Source: Zooshikella harenae
GTDB lineage: Bacteria; Pseudomonadota; Gammaproteobacteria; Pseudomonadales; Zooshikellaceae
Length of the DNA: 64,000 nt
Assembly: GCF_018837975.1 (NCBI RefSeq)
Contig: NZ_JAGSOY010000022.1
Span: 1-64,000, forward strand
Direction of reading: 5' to 3'
Positions 1-14,592 of this stretch are shown here, piece by piece (within the stretch, counting starts at the first letter, position 1; every line of letters begins with the position of its first letter). The notes under the pieces were generated by a model, which was not told the DNA's origin, did no database searches, and saw only the letters and a program-made list of their open reading frames with translations. Made by a program: the position numbers and the translations under genes.

Positions 1-1
1 T

Positions 2-511
2 ATTCTTATCGGGTTAATAACGTCAATTGCTGCTTTGGTTTGGGCTTTTAACCGGCTACAACAGTCCGGTGTTGATTTAAACTCATTCAATCCTTTTCAC
101 TGGTTCAGAAGGCATAAATGGGCAAAGCTTTACTCAATTAAGCCACTGCATCGCTTGGAAAGTGCTATTGAAGGAGCAACTGTGTTGGTTTTGGGGGTTG
201 CAAAACTGCAAGGAGAGATAACAAAAGAAATAAAAGGTACAATTATCCAAACGTTTGTTCATACGTTTTGTCTTTCTGAAAAGCAGGCGCTTGAAGCTTT
301 TACCACAGCGTCTTTTTTATGGAAAGATAGTGCAAATTATATTGCGGAAGTAAAGCATATTGTTGATCCTCTACAGAGTCATTTTTCTAGAGCACAAAAA
401 AAATCTATAATTGAAACACTGAACTATATAGCAAATGTCGATGGCCAGTTAACAGATGAGCAAAGTCTGTTTATTAAATCTGTAGAAAAAGCGTTTGGAA
501 AAGATATTTAA
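2..511 (+). CDS. TerB/DjlA-like domain protein, 5'-truncated by the window
   Basis: The reading frame is open to the left edge, so the true start lies outside the window. What remains begins with a hydrophobic stretch that looks like the end of a membrane segment, followed by a basic linker and an all-helical domain of about 110 residues. Near the C-terminus is an acidic helix pattern (IANVDGQLTDEQ), the metal-binding-type signature seen in TerB and the N-terminal domain of DjlA. Proteins of this kind are usually small membrane-anchored proteins with poorly defined roles in envelope stress. The family is judged from one motif and no neighbour supports a role, so the function is open. A TTG at position 35 would be an internal start, but nothing favours it. 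Confidence 0.6.
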   Translation: MLIGLITSIAALVWAFNRLQQSGVDLNSFNPFHWFRRHKWAKLYSIKPLHRLESAIEGATVLVLGVAKLQGEITKEIKGTIIQTFVHTFCLSEKQALEAFTTASFLWKDSANYIAEVKHIVDPLQSHFSRAQKKSIIETLNYIANVDGQLTDEQSLFIKSVEKAFGKDI

Positions 512-747
512 TTTTATATTTAAAAAAAGCTGAAAGTTTTTTATAAAGATCTCTCTTGTGGGAAGGAAGCTGCTGTTTATAATGCTTTTGTCAAAAAATG
601 CTGTTTTTAGAAGTATCCATTCGTAAATGTCTTGTTTTAATTAACATAATGTGTTTTTTGACACTTAGATGAATAATATCTTACTTTGTTATTTTAGAGG
701 TCATTTAACTAACATCTTTTATCTATCGATTTGTCCTATATTTACTC

Positions 748-767
748 AATATACTCCTAAGTATATT
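748..767. promoter_or_regulatory. Palindrome with 8-bp arms upstream of the EamA gene
   Basis: AATATACT and AGTATATT form perfect 8-bp arms around a 4-bp spacer, 33 bp before the EamA transporter start. Position and symmetry suit a dimeric repressor operator, but the region is AT-rich and no regulator gene lies next to it. A similar core (TATACTTAAGTATA) is seen at 27487-27500. Confidence 0.3.
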
Positions 768-800
768 GCGTGCATAAATCCATGAGAGAAGGACATCATA

Positions 801-1757
801 ATGAACTTCGATCGTAAAGAAACAAAACTACTTGTACGAATTGAGCCTTGGCTTTTATTGATGGTGTTATCCATCATTTGGGGTAGTACATATATTCTCA
901 TTAAGCAAGGTTTAACAGCGTTTAGTTCATTGGACGTTGGTTTACTGCGTACTTTTTTTTCAGGATTTTTCTTTATTCCATTGTATTTTTGGTTACGACC
1001 AACATTAAAACAGTTGTCACTTAATGACTGGAAATATTTAGCACTTACAGGTTTTTTTGGTAGTGTTTTTCCAACATTATTATTTGCGGTAGGGCAGCAG
1101 GTCGTACCTAGTTCCTTAGTGGGGATGTTAAATACATTGCAACCTGTGTTTGTCTTGGTTATTGCATTTTTTGCATTTAATCAGCGTTTTTCTAGGAATG
1201 AGTTGCTAGGAACTGGTTTAGGTTGTTTGGGGGCTATTGTTTTGGTCTCAGCTGGTTCTGATTTAGCTAATAGTACTCATCATCTATTTTATTGTGGTGT
1301 TGTATTACTTGGTATGATCAGCTACGGGATAGCCAGTAACCTGATTCGTCACCGATTAAAGCATATCTCTGCGGTGAGACTGACAGCAATCTCCATCAGT
1401 ATATGGTCTATACCAGCATTTATAGGGATAGTTTTACGTTATTCTGCAGGACAACTGTCCACTACAAATAATACGGTTATTGCATTATTAGCCATTGCCG
1501 TGCTTGCATTATTAGGTACATGTGTTGCGATTTCGCTTTATAGTCGCTTAATTCTTAGGTATGGACTGATTTTTGCCGTATCTATAACCTACTTTATTCC
1601 TATCGTAGCGACCACGTGGGGGGTATTAGATGGTGAAGTAATTTACTTTTTGCACTTCATTGGTCTAATTTTGGTACTTGGTGCGTTATACCTCATTAAT
1701 CATCGTCGGCAAACGAGTGATGAAGTTGTTACTCAAGGTAAGATGAAGGAAGTATGA
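801..1757 (+). CDS. EamA-family (DMT) membrane transporter
   Basis: This 318-residue protein has about ten predicted membrane helices arranged as two EamA repeats (roughly residues 15-150 and 165-305), the normal architecture of drug/metabolite transporters exporting amino acids, metabolites or drugs across the inner membrane. The first helix carries the typical IIWGSTYILIKQGL pattern. The ATG is preceded by GAGAAGGA at good spacing. The gene stands alone, with a palindrome just upstream and an intrinsic terminator 44 bp after its stop, so it is a single-gene transcription unit. The substrate cannot be read from the sequence. Confidence 0.9.
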   Translation: MNFDRKETKLLVRIEPWLLLMVLSIIWGSTYILIKQGLTAFSSLDVGLLRTFFSGFFFIPLYFWLRPTLKQLSLNDWKYLALTGFFGSVFPTLLFAVGQQVVPSSLVGMLNTLQPVFVLVIAFFAFNQRFSRNELLGTGLGCLGAIVLVSAGSDLANSTHHLFYCGVVLLGMISYGIASNLIRHRLKHISAVRLTAISISIWSIPAFIGIVLRYSAGQLSTTNNTVIALLAIAVLALLGTCVAISLYSRLILRYGLIFAVSITYFIPIVATTWGVLDGEVIYFLHFIGLILVLGALYLINHRRQTSDEVVTQGKMKEV

Positions 1758-1800
1758 AGCTTCTTGCTGTTTTAGAGTAGCAAATTAAATTACAGACACA

Positions 1801-1828
1801 AAAAAACCTGCATCCTGCAGGTTTTTTT
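1801..1828 (+). terminator. Intrinsic terminator of the EamA gene
   Basis: A perfect 12-bp stem (AAAAAACCTGCA / TGCAGGTTTTTT) with a 3-base loop runs into a run of seven T. The A-rich left arm means it can also act on leftward transcription. Confidence 0.85.
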
Positions 1829-1870
1829 GTCACCATCCTAGTGATACTTAGTCCTTTAAGTCGTTCCCTA

Positions 1871-1965
1871 ACCCATTCCATTGGGTCCTATCTTAAAACT
1901 TGGCTGGCGCTTCCCTGACGCATCCTTACGAAAGAGCTTCCTTAAACCATCCGTTGGTGCCAGCC
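1871..1965. other. Gene-free stretch with two inverted repeats, possible structured RNA or element relic
   Basis: A small hairpin, ACCCA-TTCCAT-TGGGT (1871-1886), is followed by GGCTGGCGC (1902-1910) pairing with GTGCCAGCC (1957-1965) with one G-T mismatch. The whole gap 1758-2768 (about 1 kb) lacks a convincing gene; besides this structure it holds the element at 2321-2486. Confidence 0.25.
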
Positions 1966-2320
1966 TGTTGTTATATAGTTTGGTCTAACTGGGGTTCGAA
2001 GCAAAGAGTCGATTGTTGTATACCCGTGTAGGATATTTGCCATTGTTATGTAAGTAAACTGAGTTGTCGGGATTTCATTAGTATTTTGCTTGTGAACTAA
2101 AGCAGGTTTGCTGGAATTAGGCTTCAATCTAACAAAGCCATTAATTGATATAAGCAAAAATTAATTTAGTTGTTATGAGTTTTGACTATCCGATTAATAA
2201 GGTCAACTTATAACTTGAAAGCAAGTATAATTAATTATGGTAAAAGTGAATAAAGTTTTATTTTTTCACTGTAAAATATTTCGTGCTATCAAATCAGGGC
2301 TTTGGTTATAATAGCTTTAC

Positions 2321-2486
2321 GGTATACTTCAAGTAACGGGCATCTCTAAACATGCGCTTTTTCCTCGATAACTGTGTTAGCGCTGTACTCGAATCCTCAT
2401 GTATTCCTTATGCACTACGGTTCTCCGTACAGTGTTTCTTTGCTCTCACAAAAAAATCACTATTTTTAGAGATGCTTAGGTATACC
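2321..2486. repeat. MITE-like element with imperfect terminal inverted repeats
   Basis: The left end has GGTATACTTCAAG followed by CATCTCTAAA (2321-2350). The right end has TTTAGAGATG followed by CTTAGGTATACC (2465-2486). The ends are inverted copies of each other apart from a few extra bases in the left arm. Inside is a compact hairpin, CACTACGG-TTCT-CCGTACAGTG, with a two-base bulge. The size of about 166 bp, terminal repeats and lack of coding potential fit a miniature non-autonomous element or intergenic repeat family. No target-site duplication is obvious and no second full copy is in the window. Confidence 0.45.
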
Positions 2487-2768
2487 TCATTGATTTTGAA
2501 AGTAATTAGTACACATATAGCTTTAGGTGAGTAGCTTATATTGAAGTTTATGCATGAGCTTGAGTAATCATTTTTGTGTTGCAGTTAGAGCCTAGGTTAA
2601 TCCCATATATAATAGTTGGATCAAGTAAATGCTTACTGATGATTTTTAAAGGAGAATATTAAAGAACTAGAGCAAGAAGGTAATTGGAGTGCAAAGCGAT
2701 AATAGATTACCCTAATTCACAGCGAATTTCGGCAATGCGGATGATAGTTGCATCAGGGAGGGTCTTCT

Positions 2769-3578
2769 ATGTTAATGGATGTTCCTGTTTCACTTCAGCG
2801 AAAATGTTTATCAGATACTAATCCCCAGTGGTGGTTAACACCTAACCTTAATAATGTTTGTCCTGAAATTAACTTTGCCTGCTGTGAGCCTTTTCAAGTT
2901 ATTTCCGAAAAAGAATTAACTAAATTCATTGATATCATTAACAAAAATAAGTCAAAAGCAGTCCAGTACAGTCGATCATTTACTATTCGTGGTATCCCTG
3001 AGATTGATGAGATTCTTGGTTGCTCAAACTTAGAAATGATACTATCGAAAATTGTTGGCATTGAGCTAAAAATGCACCCCATTAAAGTGGAGCATAGTCA
3101 TGTCAATTTACAGGCTAAAAATGAAGAAAGTGCTGTTGATGATTGGCACTTGGACTACGTTCCCTTCGTATTTGTGATACTTCTGGAAAAAAGTGGTAAA
3201 GAAACTGTGGGGGTTAACAGTGGCCGTTTATGTACAAAAGACTTTGGTGACTTTTCAATGAAACCTGGTGAGGGTATTTTGTTGCAGGGAAGTCATGTTT
3301 TACATAAAGCTGAGATGTGTGAAGAAGGGAGTCGCACCAGTTTGGTTATATCTTTAGTACCTAAAAATATTGAGCTGTATGATTGTACAATGGTTTACAA
3401 GCATCGGCCAACTTATGATGAACAGTCTATTTTTTACGACTTTATAAGCTACCGGATGGCCAATATCAAGGAAATGGGTCAGAATATACTTTCAAGCTAT
3501 CATTCTGATGAAAATATAAAGTTTTGGATATCCAGAATACGTGATGAATGTATGATCATTGAAAACTGTTTAATTTGA
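2769..3578 (+). CDS. Orphan protein with 2OG-Fe(II) oxygenase-like metal motif
   Basis: The chosen ATG gives 269 residues and has GGGAGG eight bases upstream; a TTG 21 bp earlier lacks such a site. The C-terminal half shows H127-L-D129 (in DDWHLDYVPF) and, about 50 residues later, GSHVLHKAEM with candidate distal histidines H176 or H179, followed by an arginine in GSRTSLV. HxD...H...R with this spacing is the iron and 2-oxoglutarate binding pattern of the double-stranded beta-helix oxygenases. The N-terminal 100 residues resemble nothing I know. There is no biosynthetic or peptide-precursor partner next to it, so the substrate is unknown. Composition is AT-rich like the surrounding accessory zone. 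The fold assignment rests on motif spacing alone. Confidence 0.55.
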   Translation: MLMDVPVSLQRKCLSDTNPQWWLTPNLNNVCPEINFACCEPFQVISEKELTKFIDIINKNKSKAVQYSRSFTIRGIPEIDEILGCSNLEMILSKIVGIELKMHPIKVEHSHVNLQAKNEESAVDDWHLDYVPFVFVILLEKSGKETVGVNSGRLCTKDFGDFSMKPGEGILLQGSHVLHKAEMCEEGSRTSLVISLVPKNIELYDCTMVYKHRPTYDEQSIFYDFISYRMANIKEMGQNILSSYHSDENIKFWISRIRDECMIIENCLI

Positions 3579-3660
3579 TCTTTTTACGATAAAAACGGTA
3601 TAAGGTTAATAAAATAAGGGAGGTAATGTCTGTAGTATTGTGTATCTATCCATGGGATAT

Positions 3661-3684
3661 GAAGGGTAGAGACGTTCTACCTTC
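3661..3684 (-). terminator. Weak hairpin after the HEAT-repeat gene
   Basis: GAAGGGTAGA pairs with TCTACCTTC with one bulged base, just past the stop of the leftward gene. There is no T-run on the minus strand, so termination is only possible, not clear. Confidence 0.3.
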
Positions 3685-3692
3685 CATAACTT

Positions 3693-5366
3693 TTATTGTT
3701 CATTAAGGGTGTTGTATAAAACTTCGTATTTCTCTCTCAGTGGAGTAATGGATGTAGTATTCATTCGATGAATAAGTTTAGACTGGTATACCTTCGATAA
3801 AGTGATTTCTGACTTTTGAGATAAATAAACATCAATTATTTCACCTGCAACACTGGGATTGTTTTCAGTTAATAAATGGTCAAAAAGTTTAGATTGATAC
3901 TGTTTATCCCTTGTCAGAATTCGTGCTGCAATCATTCTTTCTTCATAATGCTCGCTGTTTATAAATGGCAATATATTTTGGTTAAGCGCAGATGTCTTTA
4001 AGTTGTTGACTGCAAGTAGGGTGATATAGTGGTTACTATTATCGGTTTTTTGGAGTTGCTCATGAAGAAAGTCAGTAACATTATTGGTTAAATGTTTCGC
4101 ATGATCTCCTAAAATACCTACATTAAGTAATGCCGTATCGGCAATAGTTTGGTTATCAATACGAGTCATTTGTTGTAGAGTATTTAATGCCAAATCAGAG
4201 GTAACATCGCCGAGTTTTGCTATAGAAGTGATTGCTCGAAGCCTATTTTTTTCATCAATTGCTTCATTCAAAATGATTGCAGACAGTATATTGTTAGCTT
4301 CTGGAACACCAGACTGCTCAAGGGCAAATATTAATGCTGACTTTAGGGTATCATTTTGTGAGGAGTTCAGTAGTAATTCTTCTACGAAGGTAAGTCCTGC
4401 ATGTTGAGCTGCATATTGTCCGATCGCGGATATAGTGTAGATATCAGGTGTATTAGTAAATGAGGTTAGTGCACTCATGAGTTCGGTATTATTCTCAATC
4501 TTGAGCTGTTTATCCTGTGCTGAAGTGATAAGTGTATGATGTTTGTTTGCATCATAAGTATAGAGAGCAGGGGAGTCGTCAAAAGAGCGTGGAAATTGAA
4601 TAGAATCAATGGTAATCGACTGGTCAATATTAATAACCTGGTCATTATAGTTAATTTGACGAAATGTTTCGTATTTTAGAGCGCTAGGGTGTAAGGATTC
4701 CTGCAAATGCAAGTCCCATTGGTCAGACTGGGATAAGACATGATAAGTACTTGCTTGTGCTGCGTTATACTCAATATGTGTAGTCTTTCGCTGTACTTGA
4801 AGGTTATGCCGAGTGTATTGAAATGTATATACGCCATCAGCTAATTGGAGTTGAAGTGGTTTATATTGATTGTAGGAAAGTTGGGTTAAAACGGTCTTAG
4901 TAATGGTTAGTGGGTGGTTCTCTGGTAATTGTAGTAGGTCAATATTGTGGAAGTGGCCATTTTGGTAGTTTACTGTAAACGTGAGAAATTTAGGTAGCTT
5001 GTTCGTTGTTTCAGCAAGACTGTTAGCTGTTATTTGGTCAATGCGACCTAACAGAAGTGTCGGCTGATTTGAGTCATTTTTAACAGGTTTTAAGGCTAAA
5101 TTGAAGCGAATGACTGTACTGTTTTTTTCATTGCTAGCATTTGTCATGTTACTGTGTATGGTGACTTGATAGGCTAGTTTTTGCTGTTTAAGCATTATGT
5201 TACTATCAATTTTTTCATTTGATTTATTTAGAGATGATGAGAGTTCAGGTTCAGGCGATGTGTTTCTTGTCGTGGTATTCTCCACACCAAAATAAAGCAG
5301 TCCAGCCACCATACCACTTAATAACGTGGCAACAGAGAAAAAGAGGGTTCGGTGTGTAATACTCAT
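3693..5366 (-). CDS. Membrane-anchored HEAT-repeat protein resembling the vitellogenin-N / lipid-transfer helical domain
   Basis: The 557-residue product starts with an uncleaved-looking signal anchor (about residues 8-28), so the rest should face the periplasm. Residues about 60-290 are predicted beta-rich, with a conserved-looking PKFLTFTVNYQNGHFHNI segment. Residues about 300-545 are a run of paired helices, including TALLNVGILGDHAKHL and LLAVNNLKTSALNQNILPF. A beta-barrel-like N-terminal part followed by a helical superlayer, and these sequence patterns, recall the N-terminal module of large lipid transfer proteins (vitellogenin, MTP, apoB). That similarity is my reading by eye and needs a profile search; a plain HEAT-repeat scaffold is the fallback. 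It lies 160 bp downstream of a secreted-protein gene in the same direction, probably one operon, and the two may work together. Confidence 0.55.
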   Translation of the reverse strand: MSITHRTLFFSVATLLSGMVAGLLYFGVENTTTRNTSPEPELSSSLNKSNEKIDSNIMLKQQKLAYQVTIHSNMTNASNEKNSTVIRFNLALKPVKNDSNQPTLLLGRIDQITANSLAETTNKLPKFLTFTVNYQNGHFHNIDLLQLPENHPLTITKTVLTQLSYNQYKPLQLQLADGVYTFQYTRHNLQVQRKTTHIEYNAAQASTYHVLSQSDQWDLHLQESLHPSALKYETFRQINYNDQVINIDQSITIDSIQFPRSFDDSPALYTYDANKHHTLITSAQDKQLKIENNTELMSALTSFTNTPDIYTISAIGQYAAQHAGLTFVEELLLNSSQNDTLKSALIFALEQSGVPEANNILSAIILNEAIDEKNRLRAITSIAKLGDVTSDLALNTLQQMTRIDNQTIADTALLNVGILGDHAKHLTNNVTDFLHEQLQKTDNSNHYITLLAVNNLKTSALNQNILPFINSEHYEERMIAARILTRDKQYQSKLFDHLLTENNPSVAGEIIDVYLSQKSEITLSKVYQSKLIHRMNTTSITPLREKYEVLYNTLNEQ

Positions 5367-5472
5367 GGAGTGATCTACCCTAATGAGAATAATAACGTGT
5401 TTCTATTAATGATATGGCGAAAGCTCATAGCATTATCTAAGGAGCTTAAGATGTTACTGAATAGTTATCAGT

Positions 5473-5510
5473 GAAGGGTAATGTTTCTTCCTAATCTAAC
5501 GATACCCTTC
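5473..5510. repeat. 8-bp inverted repeat between the two secreted-protein genes
   Basis: GAAGGGTA (5473-5480) and TACCCTTC (5503-5510) are perfect inverted copies separated by 22 bases, in the 160-bp gap between two co-oriented genes. It may form a hairpin in the intercistronic mRNA that sets relative expression. No T-run follows. Confidence 0.3.
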
Positions 5511-5526
5511 GCTATAAGTATAACTA

Positions 5527-6522
5527 TTAGAAATAGTGTGATTTTTCGTAGAACGTTTTTTGGGTTTCGTAGATAGGTTTCCAGCTGATCACTTTGGTTG
5601 AACGGCTAAATATATTCCACACATTGAATAGTTTTACTTCACAATAAAGTGAAATATCCCCATCGCCACCTTTGGCGCTACCAGTCCATTTCAGTTTAGT
5701 ATAATACTGGTATGGATTTTCATTCATTATTGGTAAAGAGGATGCACCTGGTTTATAAGTGATACCACCTTCAATGTGTCCTTCAGTAGACATATTGATT
5801 AGGTTAAGATGACCTTTAACCCCTTTTTCAATACGCTTCATCCCAAGAAAATCAACAGCTGCATAGGCTTTACCTGTGACACTACCTGAAATCCAGGGGC
5901 TAGCTGTCGCATATACGATATCGGGTTGTCTTACGCCCTGTTGAAAAATAGGATCATTGTTTTTTTCGAAGCCACCAATTTTTAGGCCTGCACGAAAATT
6001 AGCTCCAACATTAAAAGCACCACCCACTTTTGCGCCAACTCTAAAGATACCTAAACCATCTAAGGGAACCTCTGGTAGCGTGACTTCTGGGGATGCAATG
6101 GTATGGCTCCAGTCGTAGTTTAACTCCTTGTGTAGTAAGTTTTCACAGCTGGGGCTAATTGAAATGGGTGTTGATGCGCCAATTGAATAAGTAAGGTGTA
6201 GACCTCGAGTACATGCTGCTTGGGTTGGATCAAAGGCAAAGTGAATGTTACCTGTGACAGAACTCATTTGGGTATTATGAGGGCCAACAGTGACATTGAA
6301 GGTTTCTTGAGTATTTCCGATTAACTTGTTTTTGGAGGCGTAAATATAGCCTTTCGCCTTTCGGGTTTGTTTGAAGTTTTTGATAGCTTTATTGGTTTGT
6401 GCCGTATGTGCTTTATTCATCACATTGCCTGGGCTCAGATTGGCAGTGGCATGTATAGAAAAGGCAGTGAGTAAACTGGCCGTTGTGTAAATAAAGAGTT
6501 TTTTTATTTTAACAGGTTTCAT
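5527..6522 (-). CDS. Secreted protein of unknown function, partner of the downstream HEAT-repeat protein
   Basis: I place the start at the internal ATG giving a classic signal peptide (basic MKPVKIKKL, then a hydrophobic core, cleavage near HATA-N) with AGAGAT upstream. The 22-codon in-frame extension would spoil the signal and cover the palindrome at 6542-6562. The mature protein of about 305 residues is rich in glycine and alternating hydrophobic residues, suggesting beta structure, with repeats of the type GAKVGGAFNVGANFRAGLKI and three cysteines outside the signal region. I do not recognise the family. It reads as the first gene of a two-gene unit with the HEAT-repeat protein, which suggests a shared extracytoplasmic job, possibly as ligand or cargo. 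That is inference from position. Confidence 0.6.
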   Translation of the reverse strand: MKPVKIKKLFIYTTASLLTAFSIHATANLSPGNVMNKAHTAQTNKAIKNFKQTRKAKGYIYASKNKLIGNTQETFNVTVGPHNTQMSSVTGNIHFAFDPTQAACTRGLHLTYSIGASTPISISPSCENLLHKELNYDWSHTIASPEVTLPEVPLDGLGIFRVGAKVGGAFNVGANFRAGLKIGGFEKNNDPIFQQGVRQPDIVYATASPWISGSVTGKAYAAVDFLGMKRIEKGVKGHLNLINMSTEGHIEGGITYKPGASSLPIMNENPYQYYTKLKWTGSAKGGDGDISLYCEVKLFNVWNIFSRSTKVISWKPIYETQKTFYEKSHYF

Positions 6523-6541
6523 TGTTATCTCTTTGGTATGC

Positions 6542-6562
6542 TTTTCGCGAGGCTCGCGAAAA
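6542..6562 (-). promoter_or_regulatory. Perfect palindrome in the leader of the secreted-protein gene
   Basis: TTTTCGCGA and TCGCGAAAA are perfect 9-bp arms around a GGC spacer, 20 bp upstream of the start codon. GC-rich arms in an AT-rich leader stand out. It could be an operator for a dimeric regulator or a leader hairpin affecting translation. The rest of the gap up to 6973 is AT-rich with no gene I can support. Confidence 0.5.
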
Positions 6563-6973
6563 CTATCGTTATGAGTAGACGTAGGCACTGATTAATTTTT
6601 AAAATTTTAAACGTGTTGTAAATTTATGTTTAATGAGCAAATATGAGATATGAATATTTTAATTGTTTACTAAAATACGCATAAATTTTTTGAACTAAGT
6701 TTTATGTGCTTGTATATCATACTCACTTTATTTGTGTCGAAAAAAATAAGTAGACAAGTTGAGGCAAATCTCATTTTTTATAATGGCTTAAAAATTATTT
6801 CTGAAATTGCTTCTTTATGAATGAAAAGAACTAGGCAGCATATGGCGGTGTAAGTATTGAAATTATGCTTAGTACTGAAAAAAGAAAAAGGTTTTTAGTG
6901 AGAGGATTAGTCGGAAGAGGCAATTAACAGCATGAAGTGGTGACCATCCTTGGTTCTTTTGTAAAAAGTAAGG

Positions 6974-7414
6974 TTAGGCTTGTAGGCTTTTCTTACGGGA
7001 ATAAGCCATTCCTAAAACACCGAGCCCAAAAAGAATAAGTGAAGTAGGTTCTGGAGTTGGGTCTGGTTCTGGACTGATTTCATTTACAACCAGCTCTACG
7101 CGAGCATCTTCATGGCTAAACCAGAAAACAGCATCGTCACCTGTGCCTAATGTTGTGATTGATCCTCCAATAGCCCATAACCCTGTGGCAGCACTTAAAG
7201 AGGCAAGCGCGCTTGCGTTGAGGCTAGCTTCAACATAACTGCCCACATCACTGGCTGTGACACTGACTGAGCCATAGGATGTACCACTCGCTAAATCACC
7301 AAATGCCGCTAATCCTCCTGTACCACCAGTCAGCGTTGCAATAATGGTGGATACGCTCCATAAAGTCCAAGTTTTTGATGCATCGGTGCTTAGGTAGTAA
7401 GACTGATAAAACAT
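6974..7414 (-). CDS. PEP-CTERM sorting-signal protein, apparently lacking its N-terminus
   Basis: The last 25 residues are a textbook PEP-CTERM tail: PEPTSLILFGLGVLGMAYS followed by basic RKK, the signal recognised by exosortases for processing and envelope or matrix attachment. The preceding 120 residues are Gly/Ala/Ser/Thr-rich and acidic, as usual for such exported proteins. However the only ATG gives MFYQSYYLSTDAS with no signal peptide and no ribosome site, and upstream the frame continues about 20 codons without a start to a stop. A run of nine A (7424-7432) sits just before the ATG. The gene is therefore probably 5'-truncated or frameshifted. No exosortase is in the window. Confidence 0.6.
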   Translation of the reverse strand: MFYQSYYLSTDASKTWTLWSVSTIIATLTGGTGGLAAFGDLASGTSYGSVSVTASDVGSYVEASLNASALASLSAATGLWAIGGSITTLGTGDDAVFWFSHEDARVELVVNEISPEPDPTPEPTSLILFGLGVLGMAYSRKKSLQA

Positions 7415-7625
7415 TAAATTTTGAAAAAAAAACGATACCTGAACTGTTAATTCTGTTGATAGTTTTTGATTACTCCGTTGGGAGTATGTAAAGGATTATT
7501 TTTATTTGGTAAAGCTAAGATTATAGTGAAAAAGTGCTTTTATCTATATGTTTTAGCTACACTCATTGTTGTAAATTAATTTAATTTTAATTAAACGAAT
7601 ATTCGTTAATGAATAGGGGGGAGTT

Positions 7626-8291
7626 ATGCCTGTTAAGCAAATTTTTTATGAAGATGCTCGTCCTTTGATGCAGCCAGGTGATGTCATAGCTTTTGGTGGC
7701 AAGGGGCATTTCTCAGAAATTATAAAATTTTCAACATTTTCAGATGTTTCTCATGTGGGCGTAATATTGCAGACAAAAATAACTAGTGATGATACGAACA
7801 GATTTTTTAATCAAATTATTGAATCAACATCACTTCACGGTTTTAATGGTGTTAATATTTCGCGATTTAGTGATCGAATAAATACCTATGATGGCGAACT
7901 TTGGTGGTTGCCGCTTAATGAGATGCTAAGAAAAACACGCTTTAAGCAAAAAGAATTTTATAATTTTTTGTTTAACCAGGCGAAAGCCAGAAAACCCTAT
8001 GATATGCCACAGGCAATTAAATCTGCATTAGATGCACTGGATGAACTTCCATTGGGGATGCATGGCCTGGGGTATAATAGAGAAGATTTTAGCAAGTTTT
8101 TTTGTTCGGAATTAGTTGCGGCAGCACTTGAAGTTAGCACGTTGGTTGATAGTGTGAATGCCTCTGAAGTCACCCCTATTGATTTGTGCCGCTGGAAAAT
8201 ATATCAAGATACATACTATCAGTTGAAAGGTGATAACAACAAAAAAATATCTCGCTTTAATACTGCTAACCCTGCTGATTGGAATACATAA
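7626..8291 (+). CDS. Permuted papain-like amidase/hydrolase (YiiX/YebB-type, NlpC/P60 superfamily)
   Basis: This 221-residue protein shows the circularly permuted NlpC/P60 order: the histidine first (H43 in DVSHVGVIL, after MQPGDVIAFGG) and the nucleophile cysteine late (C160 in FFCSELVAAAL). Proteins of this fold hydrolyse amide or ester bonds in peptidoglycan, proteins or lipids. There is no signal peptide, so it appears cytoplasmic unless exported another way. The ATG follows TAGGGGGGAG, a strong ribosome site. Neighbours give no pathway. The gene is AT-rich like the rest of this accessory zone. The fold is well supported; the substrate is unknown. Confidence 0.75.
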   Translation: MPVKQIFYEDARPLMQPGDVIAFGGKGHFSEIIKFSTFSDVSHVGVILQTKITSDDTNRFFNQIIESTSLHGFNGVNISRFSDRINTYDGELWWLPLNEMLRKTRFKQKEFYNFLFNQAKARKPYDMPQAIKSALDALDELPLGMHGLGYNREDFSKFFCSELVAAALEVSTLVDSVNASEVTPIDLCRWKIYQDTYYQLKGDNNKKISRFNTANPADWNT

Positions 8292-8418
8292 TACAGTTCT
8301 CCAGTGAATTTCTGGAATGAAACGTGTGTAAAATGTCGTTTTTTGAATAGGTCGACTTGCAGGATAAAACCTCTAACTTATACTCACCGTTTTATTAATT
8401 TGTGAAGGAAAGTAGGCT

Positions 8419-9033
8419 ATGAGTTGGTGTTTTAAGCGCGGATTACTCTGTGTGTTTGTATTGTCGAACTTATTATTTCAAATTGTTTATGCTACCGATA
8501 ATCGCTTTCTTGTCGATCCAATTCACTCTGTAGGCTAAATAACGCCTAACTCAACTGAAGCTGAATTAATTAAACGCTATGGTACTGAGCATGTAAAACG
8601 TACGGAAATTCCAGTGGGAGAGGGAGAAGCAATCAAGGGTACATCATTATTTCCCAAGACTAAAAATGAGCTATTAATTGAATGGAAGCATAACTTTACT
8701 CAACCTCTTCGAATCACTATTAAACAACCAAATACACAATGGAAAACTCGTAGTGGATTAACTATTGGGGCAACACTTGCCGAAGTTGAAAAAGCAAACC
8801 GAAAAGTGTTTAAACTCACTGGATTGGGGTGGGATTATGAAGGGAGAACAACTTCTTGGGAGTCTGGTGATTTACCAAATCAACTGCGGTTAGTGTTTGA
8901 CTATGATGCAGAGAATCTTGCTACCTCTGAATATCGGAAGGTTTCAGGAGATAGCGCTTTCAATTCCAATCATGAGGTATTTAAAAAATTAAAAATGACT
9001 GTGAGTTCAATGATTATTGAGTGGGATAACTAA
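8419..9033 (+). pseudogene. Secreted-protein gene interrupted by an in-frame TAA
   Basis: An ATG at 8419 with GGAAAGTAGG upstream starts a clear signal peptide (basic start, hydrophobic core, VYA cleavage). At codon 40 the frame meets TAA (8536-8538), then continues open in the same frame for 165 codons to 9033. The continuation directly after the stop (ITPNSTEAELIKRYGTEHV) reads as the natural sequel of the upstream part (RFLVDPIHSVG), so one base change, for example AAA to TAA, would restore a protein of about 204 residues. A GTG at 8614 could start a shortened cytoplasmic product but has no reason to be used. It could be a recent pseudogene, stop readthrough, or a sequencing error. I do not know the function; the family looks like small secreted proteins with a GxIT...ST..L...YG motif. 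Confidence 0.6.
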
Positions 9034-9039
9034 GTTATC

Positions 9040-9087
9040 AATCCTAGCCTCAAAAGCCTATGAAGACATAGCTTTTAGGCTAGGATT
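9040..9087. terminator. Bidirectional hairpin between convergent genes
   Basis: AATCCTAGCCT-C-AAAAGC-C-TATG pairs with CATAGCTTTTAGGCTAGGATT around a 4-base loop: over 20 paired bases with two single-base bulges. It lies between convergent genes, where a shared terminator is expected. Confidence 0.65.
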
Positions 9088-9102
9088 TAGAACTATTTAA
9101 AG

Positions 9103-9867
9103 TTAGGGCATGCTCAGGGATTTTTCATATTTTTGGGTTAAATTAGTAATAAATCCTTCATTGCGCATTTCATTAAGTACTTGATTAAGCTGGTCTATAT
9201 ACTTTTGAGGTGTATCTTTATGCATTGCTAAATAAAGCTCAGATTTTCTCACTGTATATACGGGCTTGATATTGGTAACACCTGCTTCTTTAGCAAAATA
9301 GCTACCAGAGTAGCCACCAGATATCCACAAATCTATAAGTCCGGTTGCTAGGCGTTTAGGGTTAACACGATCATTGTCAACCGTGGATACGGTAAAACCC
9401 TTGGATTTAAGGTATTCCGCTCGGACATCACCTTTATAAGCCCCAATTTTATAAGGCTTTAGATCTTCTTCCGACTCTATACGATCATTGAAATCAGCTT
9501 TAGCAAATAGCATCCAATCATTGCTGATTAGTGGTCCAACCCATTTAAATAATGGTTTACGAGCCTCTGTCAGTGTTGTACCAAAAACGCCGCGGAAGGG
9601 ACGACGTTGAGCATAAGCATATGCGTAATTCCATTGGCGTAGCTTCATTGAGTAGGGATAACCTGCCCGTTGGAAAAGTTCTTGAACAACTTCGACAGCC
9701 AAGCCACCAATGTTTTTTTCCTTATGTTCATATGGGTTTTTATGAATACTGTAGTTGTAGGGAGGGAAGTTTTCAGTAATTAAGCGAAACTTTACATCTT
9801 CTGCTGAGCTATAACCGCTTAATAGAGTCAAAAAGGTACACAAGAATAACCAGTAGCGCATAAACAC
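9103..9867 (-). CDS. Orphan periplasmic solute-binding protein, family 3
   Basis: The 254-residue product has a signal peptide (MFMRYWLFLCTFLTLLSGYSSA) and a mature part with the two-lobe family 3 binding-protein pattern: ITENFPPYNY near the N-terminus, then GGLAVEVVQELFQRAG, a central KIGAYKGDVRAEYL and IDLWISGG. Such proteins normally bind polar amino acids or similar small molecules in the periplasm for an ABC importer or a sensor. No permease or ATPase gene is adjacent, so this is a stand-alone member, common in marine gammaproteobacteria. A paralogue of the same type lies at 26482-27297. The ligand cannot be predicted. Confidence 0.8.
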   Translation of the reverse strand: MFMRYWLFLCTFLTLLSGYSSAEDVKFRLITENFPPYNYSIHKNPYEHKEKNIGGLAVEVVQELFQRAGYPYSMKLRQWNYAYAYAQRRPFRGVFGTTLTEARKPLFKWVGPLISNDWMLFAKADFNDRIESEEDLKPYKIGAYKGDVRAEYLKSKGFTVSTVDNDRVNPKRLATGLIDLWISGGYSGSYFAKEAGVTNIKPVYTVRKSELYLAMHKDTPQKYIDQLNQVLNEMRNEGFITNLTQKYEKSLSMP

Positions 9868-10497
9868 CTTGCCTATGGTTGAGATATTGTTATGAAATTT
9901 AATATGTATAAAGTTTAGTCAAAATTCGTGTAACTGATCAATGAATAAGCGATTGCTGCTTAATTGAGTTAGCTTGACGAACTAAATGCATATATACCTT
10001 TGTTGAGTATTTTTTAGGATATGGCTTTCTTTCCTTGCCTTACTCATTTCAGCTTGCTTTTCGCTAACGGTTTGAATTAATACATAAACTGTCAGTGTGA
10101 AGCAGTTCCTAAAAGATAATTCACTTGAGGTATATCGTGTGAATGATTGTTTAACGAGCACTTATAGAATGAACCAAGCAATAATCATTATGTGTTATAC
10201 ATGGTCCTTTATATTAAGTACTTGTTAAGCCATTCACTTTATATATTTTTATTGAGTCATTATTTTCGGCTGATTATAAACAGTTCGTTTGTAAAGACAA
10301 GCTAGCTTTTAAACCATAAGGTTATGTAATTGGGTTATTTGATTTCTTTTAATAATCTTAATGGGTGAGGAGTGGCAGAGTGTTTGTGACAAGAGATCCA
10401 AATTAAACTGAGGGGGGGATGATCGAATTGTAAATGATTTACGCTGGTATAGTGATGATAAAGAGATGTCTTAAATGAAGAAGGTTTTGGGCAGGAA
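9868..10497. other. Gene-free AT-rich gap
   Basis: About 630 bp between the solute-binding protein gene (its promoter side) and the folD terminator. I see no supported coding region, RNA gene or strong repeat here. Confidence 0.5.
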
Positions 10498-10538
10498 AAG
10501 AATCCCTTCAAACGGTAAGTGTTGTTGAAGGGATTCTT
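10498..10538 (-). terminator. Terminator downstream of folD
   Basis: AAGAATCCCTTCAA and TTGAAGGGATTCTT form a perfect 14-bp stem with a 13-base loop, followed on the minus strand by a short T-run (TTTTCC). It ends folD transcription. Confidence 0.75.
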
Positions 10539-10549
10539 GTATACATCAG

Positions 10550-11413
10550 TTATTGATGTAATCCATGAAGTTCAGTGGCAGTGTAGAATGTATTTTCAAT
10601 TAACGTTGCTACGGTCATTTGTCCTACACCGCCAGGAACTGGAGTTATCCAACTGGCGCGCGGTTGCGCTTCTTCAAACTCTACATCCCCGACAAGTTTA
10701 CCACTTGGTAATCGATTAATGCCGACATCAATGACTATGGCACCAGGTTTGATCCACTCACCTTTAACCAGTCCAGGCTTACCTGCACCAACTACGACAA
10801 TATCTGCGGCAGCAACCTCTGCAGCAAGGTCTTGGGTGAATCGGTGGCAGGTTGTGACTGTTGCCCCAGCAAGTAATAGTTCTAGCGACATAGGTCTACC
10901 CACTATATTAGAGGCTCCAACAATTGTTGCCTTACTACCTCGTACTTTGGCATTGATCGTTTCCAAGAGAGTCATAATCCCTTTAGGCGTACAAGGCCTC
11001 AGTACAGGCATGCGAAGGGCTAAGCGACCCATATTATAGGGGTGAAAACCATCAACATCTTTAGATGGGTCTATACGTTCAATCACTAATTCTTGATTGA
11101 TATGTGCAGGTAAAGGGAGTTGGACAAGAATACCATCAACTGTGACATCATTATTCAGTTGATCAATGAGAGCAAGTAACGACTGCTCTGTCGTTTCTGG
11201 GGGAAGGTCAAATGCTTTAGAAACGATACCTGCTTTTTCGCAAGCTCTACGTTTATTGTTTACATAAACTTGTGAGGCTGGGTCTTCCCCAACAAGGATG
11301 ACTGCCAAGCCTGGTGGACGTTGACCGGCTGCAGTAAGATTTGCTACTTGCTGACCGATGCGCTCAATCAATTGGGTGGCAATTGCTCTGCCATCGATGA
11401 TATTTCCGCTCAT
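10550..11413 (-). CDS. folD: FolD: methylenetetrahydrofolate dehydrogenase/cyclohydrolase
   Basis: This bifunctional cytoplasmic enzyme oxidises 5,10-methylene-THF to methenyl-THF with NADP and hydrolyses that to 10-formyl-THF, feeding purine and formyl-Met synthesis. The start at [12 protein letters not shown] gives 287 residues, the usual length; a 29-codon in-frame extension is unlikely to be translated. Signatures seen: [14 protein letters not shown] with the catalytic lysine, [26 protein letters not shown], the Rossmann motif [11 protein letters not shown], and [14 protein letters not shown] near the C-terminus. It is a single gene, divergent from the tRNA/tig side, as in Pseudomonas. 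Confidence 0.97.
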
Positions 11414-11530
11414 GGTGCTTATTAAAGTGCCTTGTAAATTAGGAGTCAGTTGGGGCTTATTGGGGCGTGCATTGTCGCATGCACGTTGGGGTATTAGCAA
11501 TTGGCATCATTACTTAAAGAGGGAGTGCTA

Positions 11531-11725
11531 ATGAATAAAGGAGGTATTGATAATCAATGTACATCTATAAGTGATGAAAAAGGACTGCAATCTATTAAGC
11601 CATATTTTAGTGTACAGCATCTGTTTTGGTTAATAAGTAAACATCAGGCTAACTGGTTGATAAAAAAGTGCTTTAAAGCGTTGACGGCAGTTGGGTCAGC
11701 AAGTATTATGCGCACCACTTGCTGA
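11531..11725 (+). CDS. Doubtful small protein, 64 residues
   Basis: An ATG preceded by GAGGGAG opens a 64-codon frame with no recognisable motif, signal peptide or membrane segment. It lies between folD and the tRNA genes. The ribosome-site match is the only support; chance is quite possible. Confidence 0.2.
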   Translation: MNKGGIDNQCTSISDEKGLQSIKPYFSVQHLFWLISKHQANWLIKKCFKALTAVGSASIMRTTC

Positions 11726-11924
11726 GCAGCACAGCTTCAAGCAACCTGAGTTCTAGTAACTTAGCTGAATAAGCGTTAGATTAAATACTAGTGCTTCAGT
11801 TGTGTGAGTAATAAGGCCAGCAGTTAAGGGTTACTGATAAGAGCGCTTAACTATAGGTGATTACTAACACTAAAGAGTGGCAGAAATTAAGAGCTTGAAT
11901 TTTTTAAAAGGTGCTGTAAGATGA

Positions 11925-12001
11925 GCGCCCGTAGCTCAGCTGGATAGAGCATCCGCCTTCTAAGCGGATGGTCGCAGGTTCGAGTCCTGCCGGGCGCGCC
12001 A
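11925..12001 (+). tRNA. tRNA-Arg (anticodon TCT)
   Basis: A full cloverleaf can be drawn: acceptor stem GCGCCCG/CGGGCGC, D-arm AGCTCAGCTGGATAGAGC, anticodon stem TCCGC/GCGGA with loop CTTCTAA, T-arm GCAGGTTCGAGTCCTGC, discriminator G and encoded CCA. It decodes AGA. It is first of three tRNA genes that form one unit upstream of tig. Confidence 0.97.
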
Positions 12002-12058
12002 GTCTCTAATTAAATGAAGTCGGGCTGGTTAAGCTAGAATTGAAGTTACGATTTTTAT

Positions 12059-12135
12059 GGTGGGCGTAGCTCAGTTGGTAGAGCACAGGATTGTGACTCC
12101 TGTGGTCGTGGGTTCAAGTCCCATCGTCCACCCCA
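12059..12135 (+). tRNA. tRNA-His (anticodon GTG)
   Basis: The acceptor stem GTGGGCG/CGTCCAC is extended by the histidine-specific extra 5' G (12059) opposite C73. The anticodon loop is TTGTGAC and the T-arm GTGGGTTCAAGTCCCAT, with CCA encoded. It lies 57 bp after tRNA-Arg. Confidence 0.97.
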
Positions 12136-12179
12136 GTTTTGATAGTTGATCGAATGGTGAGCTATTAGTTTAAGTTAAA

Positions 12180-12264
12180 GCGGAAGTGGTGAAATTGGTA
12201 GACACGCTGGATTTAGGTTCCAGTGCCGAAAGGTGTGAGAGTTCGAGTCTCTCCTTCCGCACCA
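12180..12264 (+). tRNA. tRNA-Leu (anticodon TAG)
   Basis: A class II tRNA with a long variable arm (TGCCGAAAGGTGTG region): acceptor GCGGAAG/CTTCCGC, anticodon stem CTGGA/TCCAG with loop TTTAGGT, T-arm GAGAGTTCGAGTCTCTC and encoded CCA. It decodes CTA/CTG. It is last in the three-tRNA unit and directly precedes a strong terminator. Confidence 0.97.
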
Positions 12265-12271
12265 AGATCAA

Positions 12272-12305
12272 AAAAATGGGGATAAGGTGACTTATCCCCA
12301 TTTTT
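12272..12305 (+). terminator. Terminator of the tRNA operon
   Basis: AAAAATGGGGATAAG and CTTATCCCCATTTTT form a perfect 15-bp stem with a GTGA loop, ending in a T-run. Confidence 0.92.
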
Positions 12306-12337
12306 GTATTGTCGGCAGAAAAAGTTAGGGGTTCGTG

Positions 12338-12358
12338 AGACTATCGCGTTGATAGTCT
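12338..12358 (+). promoter_or_regulatory. Hairpin in the tig leader
   Basis: AGACTATC-GCGTT-GATAGTCT is a perfect 8-bp hairpin with a 5-base loop, 57 bp before the tig start. It has no T-run, so a 5'-UTR structure or protein site is likelier than a terminator. Confidence 0.35.
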
Positions 12359-12415
12359 GATAACATTTTGCTTTGATTAGGCCCTTCGAAGAATTTGTTT
12401 TAACGAGGAACAACG

Positions 12416-13768
12416 ATGCAAGTCTCACTCGAAGCGACTTCTGGTCTGGAGCGTCGCCTGACCATTACGGTACCCGCGGAGCAAGTGGAAGCAAAAGTCA
12501 CTGAGCGTTTAAAAGACACCGCAAAGAAAATACGTCTTGATGGCTTCCGTCCTGGTAAGGTACCACTAAGTGTGGTTAAGCGTCGTTTCGGCAAGTCTAC
12601 ACGCCAGGAAGTTGTAGGTGATGTAATGCAGTCTTCTTTTATAGAAGCGATTCAAAAAGAATCATTACGTCCTGCAGGTATGCCCTCAGTTGAACCTGTC
12701 AAAATGGAGCCGGGTGAAGACTTTGAGTTTATTGCGACTTTTGAGGTTTACCCTGAGCTCGCTCTGAAAGGTTATGAAGGCATTGTCATTGAAAAGCCCA
12801 GTGCAGAAGTCACTGATGCTGATGTAGAACAAATGCTGGAAACACTTCGTACTCAAAACCGTGAGTGGCAGACTGTAGAGCGTGAAGCCAAAGATGGCGA
12901 TCAAGTAACGATTGACTTTGTGGGTCGTAAAGATGGTGAAGAGTTTGAAGGTGGAAATGCTGAAGACTTCAAACTAGAGCTAGGCTCAGGTCAAATGATT
13001 GAAGGTTTTGAGTCAAACTTAGTGGGTAGCAAAGCTGGTGAAGAAAAAGTTATTAATGTTACTTTTCCAGAAGACTACCAAGCTGAGTCATTGGCTGGTC
13101 AACCAGCAGAATTCACAATTCAGGTTAAAGACGTGGCAGAATCCGTATTACCAGAATTGAATGATGAATTTTTTGCTAAGTTTGGTGTTTCAGAAGGTGG
13201 ACTTGATGCTTTTAAAGCAGAAGTGCGCAAAAACATGGAACGCGAGCTGCAGCATGCGACCAAAAACAAAATTAAAAACCAAGTAATGGATGGTCTGCTT
13301 GCTGAGAACGAAGTTGACGTACCTACGGCGTTATTGGATGATGAAATTAATCGGATGCGTCAACAAGCGGCACAACAGATATTCGGTGGCGAAAACCAAG
13401 TAGATCCTGCTAAACTGCCAGCAGAGCTATTTAAAGATCGTGCACTTAAGCGGGTAAAACTAGGCTTGGTGGTTGCTGAAGTTGTTAAACAGCATGACAT
13501 TAAAGTTGACGATGAGCGTGTAAAATCTTTAGTTGAAGATATTGCTTCAGCCTATGAACAACCTGAACAGGTCGTTAGCTGGTATTTTAGTAATGAACGT
13601 CAAATGGCTGAAGTGCGTTCAATTGTACTTGAAGATCAGGTGGTTGATACTGTCCTGGGAGCAGCGCAAGTTACTGTGAAAGAATGCAGTTATGAAGAAG
13701 CTATTAAGCCTGCTCAGGAAAGTGAAACCGAGAAAGAACAACAAGCTGAGACCGACGTAGCCAGTTGA
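12416..13768 (+). CDS. tig: Trigger factor, ribosome-associated chaperone and prolyl isomerase
   Basis: Trigger factor binds L23 at the ribosome exit tunnel and shields nascent chains. The 450-residue product has the ribosome-binding N-domain (residues 1-145) with the [17 protein letters not shown] signature loop, a central FKBP-type isomerase domain (about 155-245; [16 protein letters not shown] and [19 protein letters not shown]), and the helical C-terminal chaperone arms (about 250-430). It is slightly longer than the E. coli protein through an acidic Glu/Gln-rich tail. The ATG follows GAGGAA. It heads the tig-clpP-clpX cluster; a hairpin with a short T-run separates it from clpP. Confidence 0.97.
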
Positions 13769-13775
13769 TCTCTAT

Positions 13776-13800
13776 AAACAGCCGGTTATTCCGGCTGTTT
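13776..13800 (+). terminator. Hairpin between tig and clpP
   Basis: AAACAGCCGG-TTATT-CCGGCTGTTT is a perfect 10-bp stem starting 8 bp after the tig stop. The T-run is short, so it probably gives partial termination and leaves read-through into clpP. Confidence 0.65.
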
Positions 13801-13833
13801 GGTCACTGTGTCCACAAGGGGGATAGCAAGGAC

Positions 13834-14478
13834 ATGTCCAACTCTTTCATTTATGATGGTCATTCCGAAAAAGTGATTACTAATAGCTCTTTGGTTCCCA
13901 TGGTTGTTGAGCAGACTGCGCGTGGCGAACGTTCATATGATATCTACTCAAGGCTGCTTAAAGAGCGTGTCATATTCCTTGTGGGGCAGGTTGAAGACCA
14001 CATGGCAAATTTGATCGTTGCGCAGCTATTGTTTTTAGAGTCGGAGAACCCAGATAAAGATATACATCTTTATATAAACTCACCTGGTGGCTCAGTAACG
14101 GCAGGTATGTCAATTTATGACACCATGCAGTTTATTAAGCCTGATGTTAGTACAATGTGTATAGGGCAAGCCGCGAGTATGGGCGCTCTTTTATTGACTG
14201 CAGGTGCACCAGGTAAGCGTTACTGTCTGCCACACTCAAGAGTTATGATTCACCAACCATTAGGTGGATTTCAAGGGCAAGCTTCAGATATTGAAATTCA
14301 TGCGCGTGAAATTTTGCAGATTCGTGAGCGCTTGAATAAAGTCTTATCCCATCATACTGGACAGCCCCTTGAAGTAGTTTCGAAGGATACAGATCGTGAC
14401 TACTTTATGAGTGCTGAAGAAGCAGTCAATTATGGCTTAGTAGATAAAGTCATCGCTAAGCGGGCTGCGGCAGAATAA
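13834..14478 (+). CDS. clpP: ClpP: ATP-dependent protease proteolytic subunit
   Basis: ClpP forms the tetradecameric serine protease chamber fed by ClpX or ClpA. The ATG at 13834 gives 214 residues and the usual short propeptide; an in-frame TTG overlapping the tig stop would place 23 odd residues in front across the tig-clpP hairpin. The catalytic triad is visible: Ser115 in [10 protein letters not shown], His140 in [11 protein letters not shown] and an Asp near 185 in KDTDRDYF. The oligomerisation motif [19 protein letters not shown] is intact. clpX follows 114 bp later in the standard clpP-clpX order, giving the cell matching protease and unfoldase. Confidence 0.97.
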
Positions 14479-14592
14479 TCTAAGCTAAAGTAAGGGGAGT
14501 GTGATCACTCTTCTTCTTGCCATCTACTTGAAAAACAATGTAGCAGGCTACATTTAGCAAAGTAGACTCGTTGTCTCAGTAGGGTAAATCGA

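Follow-up and report, generated by a model that had tools for sequence, protein, structure and literature searches.

The first 64,000 nucleotides of contig NZ_JAGSOY010000022.1 of Zooshikella harenae (the complete stretch, further called the window) contain a pair of neighboring genes, A and B, which encode a putative secreted, beta-rich protein and a membrane-anchored HEAT-repeat protein, respectively. We found that B very probably belongs to a bacterial protein family whose members, judged from profile comparisons and a structural model, are in all likelihood homologous to the N-terminal module (N-module; N-sheet plus helical domain) of the animal large lipid transfer proteins (LLTPs). The genes of this family are linked to genes encoding a conserved beta-amphipathic domain, the A core, and there is about an even chance that B assists the assembly of that core.

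Kinship of B with the LLTP N-module

The first relative of B was encountered in the gamma-proteobacterial genome G086, in the form of a protein of 667 amino acids whose gene directly follows that of a secreted protein of 1,204 amino acids with an A-like domain. Further B proteins were collected by running growing profiles over orders, class and phylum, and according to the record titles 13 of the loci originate from Magnetococcales, Halobeggiatoa, Parabeggiatoa, Thiotrichales, Desulfobacteraceae, Desulfatirhabdium, Desulfamplus, an unplaced proteobacterium and an Anaeromyxobacter bin. The gene is rare, as it was recovered in 4 of the 369 genomes of the class and 5 of the 299 genomes of the phylum at an E-value of 1e-15 (the window's genome counted in each). 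Six genomes that matched only via other frames (952-1,747 amino acids, E 1e-8 to 1e-12) were not counted as containing B, and weak matches in G256 and G157 were read and rejected as unrelated open reading frames (ORFs). One profile search pointed to 18 places, among which L011 and L012 held true relatives, and nine HEAT-protein ORFs (L013-L028) became the controls for the comparisons below.

The Pfam model Vitellogenin_N (cut-off 24 bits) was exceeded in 15 of the 25 B proteins scanned, with scores between 25.1 and 55.5 bits. Three others reached 21-23 bits and seven, including the B protein of the window, lacked the match; the B protein of G191 scored 24.4 bits, yet was absent from the hmmscan listing and was counted as having none. 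In two cases the match spanned both halves of the protein (profile positions 79-567 and 76-526). A first objection to these scores is that eight of the nine ordinary HEAT proteins also matched the model (16.6-35.8 bits), four of them above the cut-off. The HEAT part of the match is therefore unspecific, and it is the beta halves, taken alone, that matter. The first set of 14 isolated beta halves, the one of the window included, likewise argued against kinship, as it yielded no match to Vitellogenin_N, nothing consistent in Pfam and no match in the PDB. The Magnetococcales-type subgroup gave another picture: of its nine beta halves taken alone, seven matched Vitellogenin_N, at profile positions 70-243 and with E-values of 6.1e-6 to 0.045 (one over the cut-off).

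These data bear directly on a rival explanation, namely that B is an ordinary HEAT-repeat protein and that its likeness to vitellogenin represents cross-talk between helical repeats. The fact that controls pass the Vitellogenin_N cut-off speaks for it, and so does the B protein of the window, which on its own matches HEAT_2 only. However, the ten Magnetococcales-type B proteins combine weaker HEAT_2 scores (37-64 bits) with mostly stronger Vitellogenin_N scores (32-56 bits) than the nine controls (HEAT_2 120-264 bits; Vitellogenin_N none or 17-36 bits), several of which carry a kinase domain. In addition, the beta halves match the model in the absence of any HEAT repeat, and the controls show no significant profile match to the B protein of the window. 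Generic bacterial HEAT proteins and B have HEAT repeats in common, with much stronger HEAT_2 scores in the former. Together with the fold match described next, this makes the cross-talk explanation highly improbable, and at the level of the family it is largely refuted.

An AlphaFold2 model of a Magnetococcales B protein (L079; alignment of 13 sequences) was of good quality, with a predicted local distance difference test (pLDDT) of 86.9, a predicted template modeling score of 0.77 and blocks mostly above 80. It shows 11 strands with one helix amid, followed by 21 helices. The six best PDB matches of the model were all LLTPs, i.e. MTP (6i7s, two chains; 8eoj), lipovitellin (1lsh) and two entries of honey-bee vitellogenin, with E-values of 2.2e-13 (MTP) and 1.6e-12 (lipovitellin) to 2.8e-8 and TM-scores by query length of 0.35-0.50; the next one was an artificial HEAT protein at 5.8e-6. 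In VIA, the model aligned to lipovitellin over 528 residues (Z 17.2; root-mean-square deviation (rmsd) 9.2), an extent that a plain HEAT protein does not account for, and to an apoB barrel structure over 304 residues (Z 16.2, rmsd 7.1). An artificial HEAT protein came close in Z (16.7, rmsd 4.5), which weakens the case, but its 214 aligned residues cover the helical half only. The layering of the helical domain was judged through the fold match only, following the definition in PMC5538283. At the sequence level, a profile built from 14 B proteins and run against the PDB returned artificial and other HEAT proteins and no LLTP among 52 matches, and no family in NCBIfam fitted the subgroup well (best E 4.3e-6, a phycobilisome HEAT protein).

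With its 11 strands, the helix among them and the long helical domain that comes after, the model of L079 has its elements in the same order as the LLTP superfamily (vitellogenin/lipovitellin, the MTP large subunit, apoB and apolipophorin). Unlike the animal proteins, the bacterial ones have an N-terminal membrane anchor (except in G461 and G398) and a separate partner gene, and the aligned sequences stop at the helical domain, without the C-sheet and A-sheet that hold the lipid in animal LLTPs. They are also poor in cysteine (0-2 in the 23 proteins counted; 0 in that of the window) and lack the conserved disulphides. Since B has neither the lipid-holding sheets nor the conserved disulphides, we regard it as a protein containing the N-module and not as an LLTP. 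A pair of cysteines is present in the beta half of the B or B-like proteins of G398 (residues 40/222; two cysteines in total) and G461 (30/211; three in total) and may form a disulphide. By eye, these two (L110 5971-7773 and L066 7544-9301, respectively) have a signal-peptide-like start instead of an anchor.

The position of the B protein of the window within the family needs separate consideration. The earlier note on this DNA had proposed, by eye, a resemblance to the N-terminal domain of vitellogenin. That resemblance holds for the family (Vitellogenin_N in 15 of 25 proteins and 7 of 9 subgroup beta halves, plus the fold matches of L079) and fails for the window protein taken alone, for which direct searches of Pfam, NCBIfam and the PDB gave HEAT_2 and nothing else credible. 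The finding of generic HEAT repeats only, named in that note as grounds for abandoning the idea, is thus literally true of the window protein on its own. The sequence motifs on which the note relied (TALLNVGILGD, LLAVNNLK and ILPFI) fall in the HEAT half, which is the least specific part.

Membership of the window protein is supported by profile-profile comparison, in which residues 62-514 of the two B proteins of the genus aligned with 22 relatives at a probability of 98.1% and an E-value of 1.2e-13, versus 53 columns with the nine HEAT controls (5.1%, E 0.0077). A hidden Markov model (HMM) of the same two sequences gave five relatives 19-27 bits and the best control 3.6 bits, with four relatives below that control. 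Several results point the other way. With three subgroup HMMs, HEAT controls outscored the window protein in 1/10, 7/10 and 6/10 cases. Its beta half, compared alone with the relatives by hhalign, was co-linear but insignificant (1.1%, E 0.048), did not match Vitellogenin_N when scanned alone and was modeled poorly by AlphaFold2 (pLDDT <50), and an HMM built from the beta halves of the relatives scored the window protein at 2.5 bits. Foldseek placed seven LLTP chains on top for its model (E from 4.1e-7), a result that is not independent because the alignment was built from relatives, and VIA did not single out the LLTPs. As the beta half is unrecognized by sequence and poorly modeled, membership leans on the relatives and on the neighboring gene. 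The latter was recovered with an HMM of pooled A cores from outside the genus (see below), which provides independent support. Considering all this, we are highly confident that the protein is a member of the B family.

The A core and its linkage to B

Direct searches of Pfam, NCBIfam and the PDB with the A protein of the window gave nothing credible. Nevertheless, the pooled HMM of 13 A cores, without those of the window genus, recovered it at 19.0-19.1 bits (E 2.3e-4), compared to at most 5.3 bits for 203 decoy ORFs (one further 'decoy' turned out to be the A gene of G064 itself). In a profile-profile comparison it matched 18 other A cores at 82.3% (E 1e-5), against 0.1% (E 0.39) for another beta domain, that of B. 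Two observations weaken this assignment: three subgroup HMMs gave the protein 3.0, 6.7 and 1.1 bits, scores that do not set it apart from decoys, and a profile of the two A sequences of the genus failed to find other A proteins.

Searches with A cores returned no PDB chain, and no Pfam family was matched consistently. The core is characterized by a high beta moment (z averages 2.94 in 20 cores and is 3.42 in that of the window), where 37 ORFs of the window, which were not chosen as beta proteins, had a mean of -0.18 and a maximum of 2.17. The property is absent in two of the 20 cores (L055 and L057). Its value as a distinguishing mark is lowered by the beta half of B, which is amphipathic too (mean z 2.03), and by the fact that amphipathic strands are common in exposed beta proteins. 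Around the core, the A proteins vary widely. They range from 331 amino acids in the window to more than 3,000, with one open frame of 6,563 amino acids directly upstream of B in G473 (L108 1-17661, plus strand), and contain crystallin-type, PD40 and aspartyl-protease domains, with fn3 and CARDB below the cut-off. By eye, some look like lipoproteins and others have a plain signal peptide. The N-terminus of the window protein resembles a signal peptide and its core is beta-amphipathic, in line with the secreted beta-rich protein foreseen in the earlier note; the export signals of A are predictions. We rejected an outer-membrane barrel as the structure of the core because the core lies internally in the long A proteins.

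Linkage was assessed for the 24 B loci with informative flanks, using A-core HMMs that left out the locus under test; the B stretches at contig ends (L083, G491, G498 and G424) were left out of this count. An A-core gene was found directly beside B in 22 of the 24. A first pass gave 21, all on the same strand and with spacings between an overlap of 36 bases and a gap of 360 bp, and a longer stretch added G473, where the A core directly precedes B. The A gene was located upstream in 20 of the first 21 adjacent loci and downstream only in L085 (B then A, ~26 bp between). L088 has the order A-B-A on the plus strand, in which two large A-core genes (1-3318 and 5731-15488) flank B (3494-5491). The two remaining loci count against a strict pairing: in L090 no A core was found in the 2.3 kb that precede B or the 7.2 kb that follow it, and in G481 a distance of 4.6 kb with two ORFs separates B from the A gene upstream. 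These ORFs encode proteins of 221 (L107 12209-12874, minus strand, opposite to the pair) and 910 amino acids and look as if inserted; the smaller one resembles a REP-type transposase. In L075, B is followed by repeat-rich frames (11663-13184, plus strand; SIPAHAGEP, YPRTCGGT, LSPHMRGN) that resemble a translated CRISPR array.

The reverse search, starting from the A core, recovered it in 13 of 96 genomes of two orders, 12 of which contain a clear B and the thirteenth (G398) a B-like gene. In one order (42 genomes) the A core was present in seven, all with B, and G491 and G498 held fragments of B without an A core; in the other (54 genomes) it was present in six, five with a B already known, and G424 held such a fragment. 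The B-like gene of G398 (600 amino acids, ~33 bp downstream of the A core) was found only via the A core, and its score of 39.5 bits is below that of most HEAT controls. In the window, too, a B-type protein comes with an adjoining A-core gene. Co-occurrence of the two genes in relatives had been set beforehand as a test of the pair, and with 22 of 24 B loci and 13 of 13 A-core genomes having B or a B-like gene nearby it was borne out. What proximity alone does not do is specify the kind of partnership, as it fits others too.

The pair in the window and its surroundings

Both ORFs were found on the same (minus) strand, with A 5' of B, where the earlier note had placed a two-gene unit, and the pair has been retained in the same order in G001, the sole other species of the genus compared (Table 1). 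Gene A has a conserved ATG at 6522 and a stop ending at 5527, the mechanical ORF start being a GTG at 6588. No terminator-like sites were found within 3500-7700. Inverted repeats resembling hairpins, with ACCCTTC in common, were seen by eye 3' of both A and B (5440-5526 and 3640-3690) and were not called as terminators.

Table 1. Features of the A-B pair in the window
Feature	Position	Strand	Description
Gene A	5527-6522	-	331 amino acids; putative secreted beta-rich protein; smallest A found here; basis ORF
Likely signal peptide of A	6442-6522	-	residues 1-27, ending ATA; read by eye from sequence
A-core domain	5575-6078	-	residues ~149-316; matched part 189-326 (HMM), 204-325 (hhalign); beta-amphipathic
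A-B gap	5367-5526	-	160 bp
Gene B	3693-5366	-	557 amino acids; membrane-anchored HEAT protein of the LLTP-N-like family
Transmembrane anchor of B	5289-5345	-	residues 8-26; Kyte-Doolittle 1.94
Beta half of B	4551-5192	-	residues 59-272; predicted LLTP N-sheet counterpart, low confidence in window member
Helical HEAT half of B	3696-4496	-	residues 291-557; HEAT_2 match plus modeled helices

The layout of B agrees with what had been proposed. The single hydrophobic stretch is N-terminal (the Kyte-Doolittle value nowhere exceeds 0.79 after residue 60), and such a stretch is present in all 23 B proteins for which it was computed. From the sequence we predict that the anchor fixes B in the inner membrane and that the rest of the protein faces the periplasm. 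The division into a beta half and a helical-repeat half is supported by HEAT_2, with E-values of 4.8e-5 for the window (under the cut-off) and 8.4e-7 for G001 (over the cut-off), and by the AlphaFold2 model, in which strands with one helix between are followed by 19 helices with block means up to a pLDDT of 92.

Between the two species, A is 91.5% identical, like three nearby genes (91.1-94.1%), and B only 70.5%. B diverges faster than A, although the divergence at third sites is alike in both genes. In three genomes of a sister genus neither gene was recovered at the thresholds used, and searches of plasmids gave no match.

Just 5' of A lies a gene for a PEP-CTERM protein (6974-7414, minus strand), at whose position G001 has no ORF of 100 amino acids; an exosortase-family protein is encoded in the same genome as the window (G000:C223, 228 bits). 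The product of 7626-8291 (plus strand; 94% identity in G001) is weakly similar to permuted papain-like C92 peptidases (E 2.4e-4, under the Pfam cut-off) and that of 2748-3578 (plus strand), the convergent neighbor immediately downstream of B, to the halogenase HalD (E 0.0029, under the cut-off).

Possible function and significance

The analysis shows the kinship of the B family with the LLTP N-module, the membrane anchor of B, the amphipathic A core and the linkage of the genes. These form the starting point for a functional proposal, to which we assign about equal chances of being right or wrong: by analogy, B may be a membrane-tethered periplasmic assembly chaperone or loading factor for the amphipathic beta core of A. 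Since the A proteins vary in size and domains, the task of B should concern the shared core, the sole feature that its partners have in common. A would be exported through Sec, after which its amphipathic core would bind B and be held by the N-sheet and the helical cradle during folding, perhaps while lipid from the membrane is loaded onto it, and finished A would be released to the outer membrane or the medium. The binding of A, the chaperoning and the involvement of lipid are all inferred.

Such a role would be that of MTP for apoB, set in the layout of a lipase and its LipH: a secreted client with a membrane-anchored chaperone. MTP is described as an essential chaperone for apoB (PMC3337244, PMC5538283) that has lipid-binding sheets of its own and pairs with PDI (PMC5538283). 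In both systems a helper with the LLTP fold would serve a client whose beta structure is amphipathic, the likeness of the A core to apoB being an analogy. The genes of the Lif foldases adjoin those of their lipases. LipH is, according to PMC13381987, the membrane-anchored chaperone of LipA, so that this system would share with the pair a secreted protein and an N-terminally anchored periplasmic helper, a client role for A being presumed. B differs from Lif in fold. No foldase family was found among its Pfam and NCBIfam matches, and Pfam scans of A gave no lipase match.

An alternative is that the pair represents a split LLTP, in which the sheets missing from B come from the A core and the complex holds lipid and moves it across the envelope like a single animal LLTP chain. 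B indeed corresponds to the N-module minus C- and A-sheets, the A core is beta-amphipathic, and the order B then A in L085 is the order of the LLTP domains. However, in all 21 other adjacent loci A precedes B (in L088 it stands on both sides), the core has neither a PDB match nor a consistent Pfam family, and no fusion of A and B was seen among the loci read, in which fusions were not searched for specifically. We consider this alternative rather unlikely. We also regard as unlikely a more far-reaching version, in which a bacterial two-protein LLTP makes a secreted particle or a surface protein that bears lipid, and in which fusion of such a pair gave rise to the vitellogenin, apoB and MTP of animals.

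The wide range of A proteins (331 to >3,000 amino acids, variable extra domains around a shared core, and starts that look by eye either lipoprotein-like or like a plain signal peptide) could also suggest that B acts in the periplasm as a scaffold or as a receptor for sorting, which hands A to a machine for secretion or surface display and uses its LLTP-like fold for protein binding only. We find this quite improbable, because lipid-linked assembly is the role in which the LLTP fold is known.

Literature searches aimed at bacterial or pre-animal LLTP members revealed none among the results listed, which in several cases were the best few of many (5 of 5,506, 10 of 1,446 and 10 of 496) and mostly lacked subscription papers; as evidence that no earlier report exists, this is weak. 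Where the literature covered here mentions LLTPs, it presents them as proteins of animals, concerned with yolk and with the transport of lipid in blood. As Pfam's own model reaches them, B proteins may already bear the Vitellogenin_N name in databases without comment. A bacterial N-module family that extends, by record titles, over several phyla and is linked to one partner domain would constitute a minimal system for the role of the module before it came to serve fat transport, and allows ideas on the origin of vitellogenin, apoB and MTP to be tested. Expression and purification should be easiest with the pair of the window, which has the smallest A protein found.

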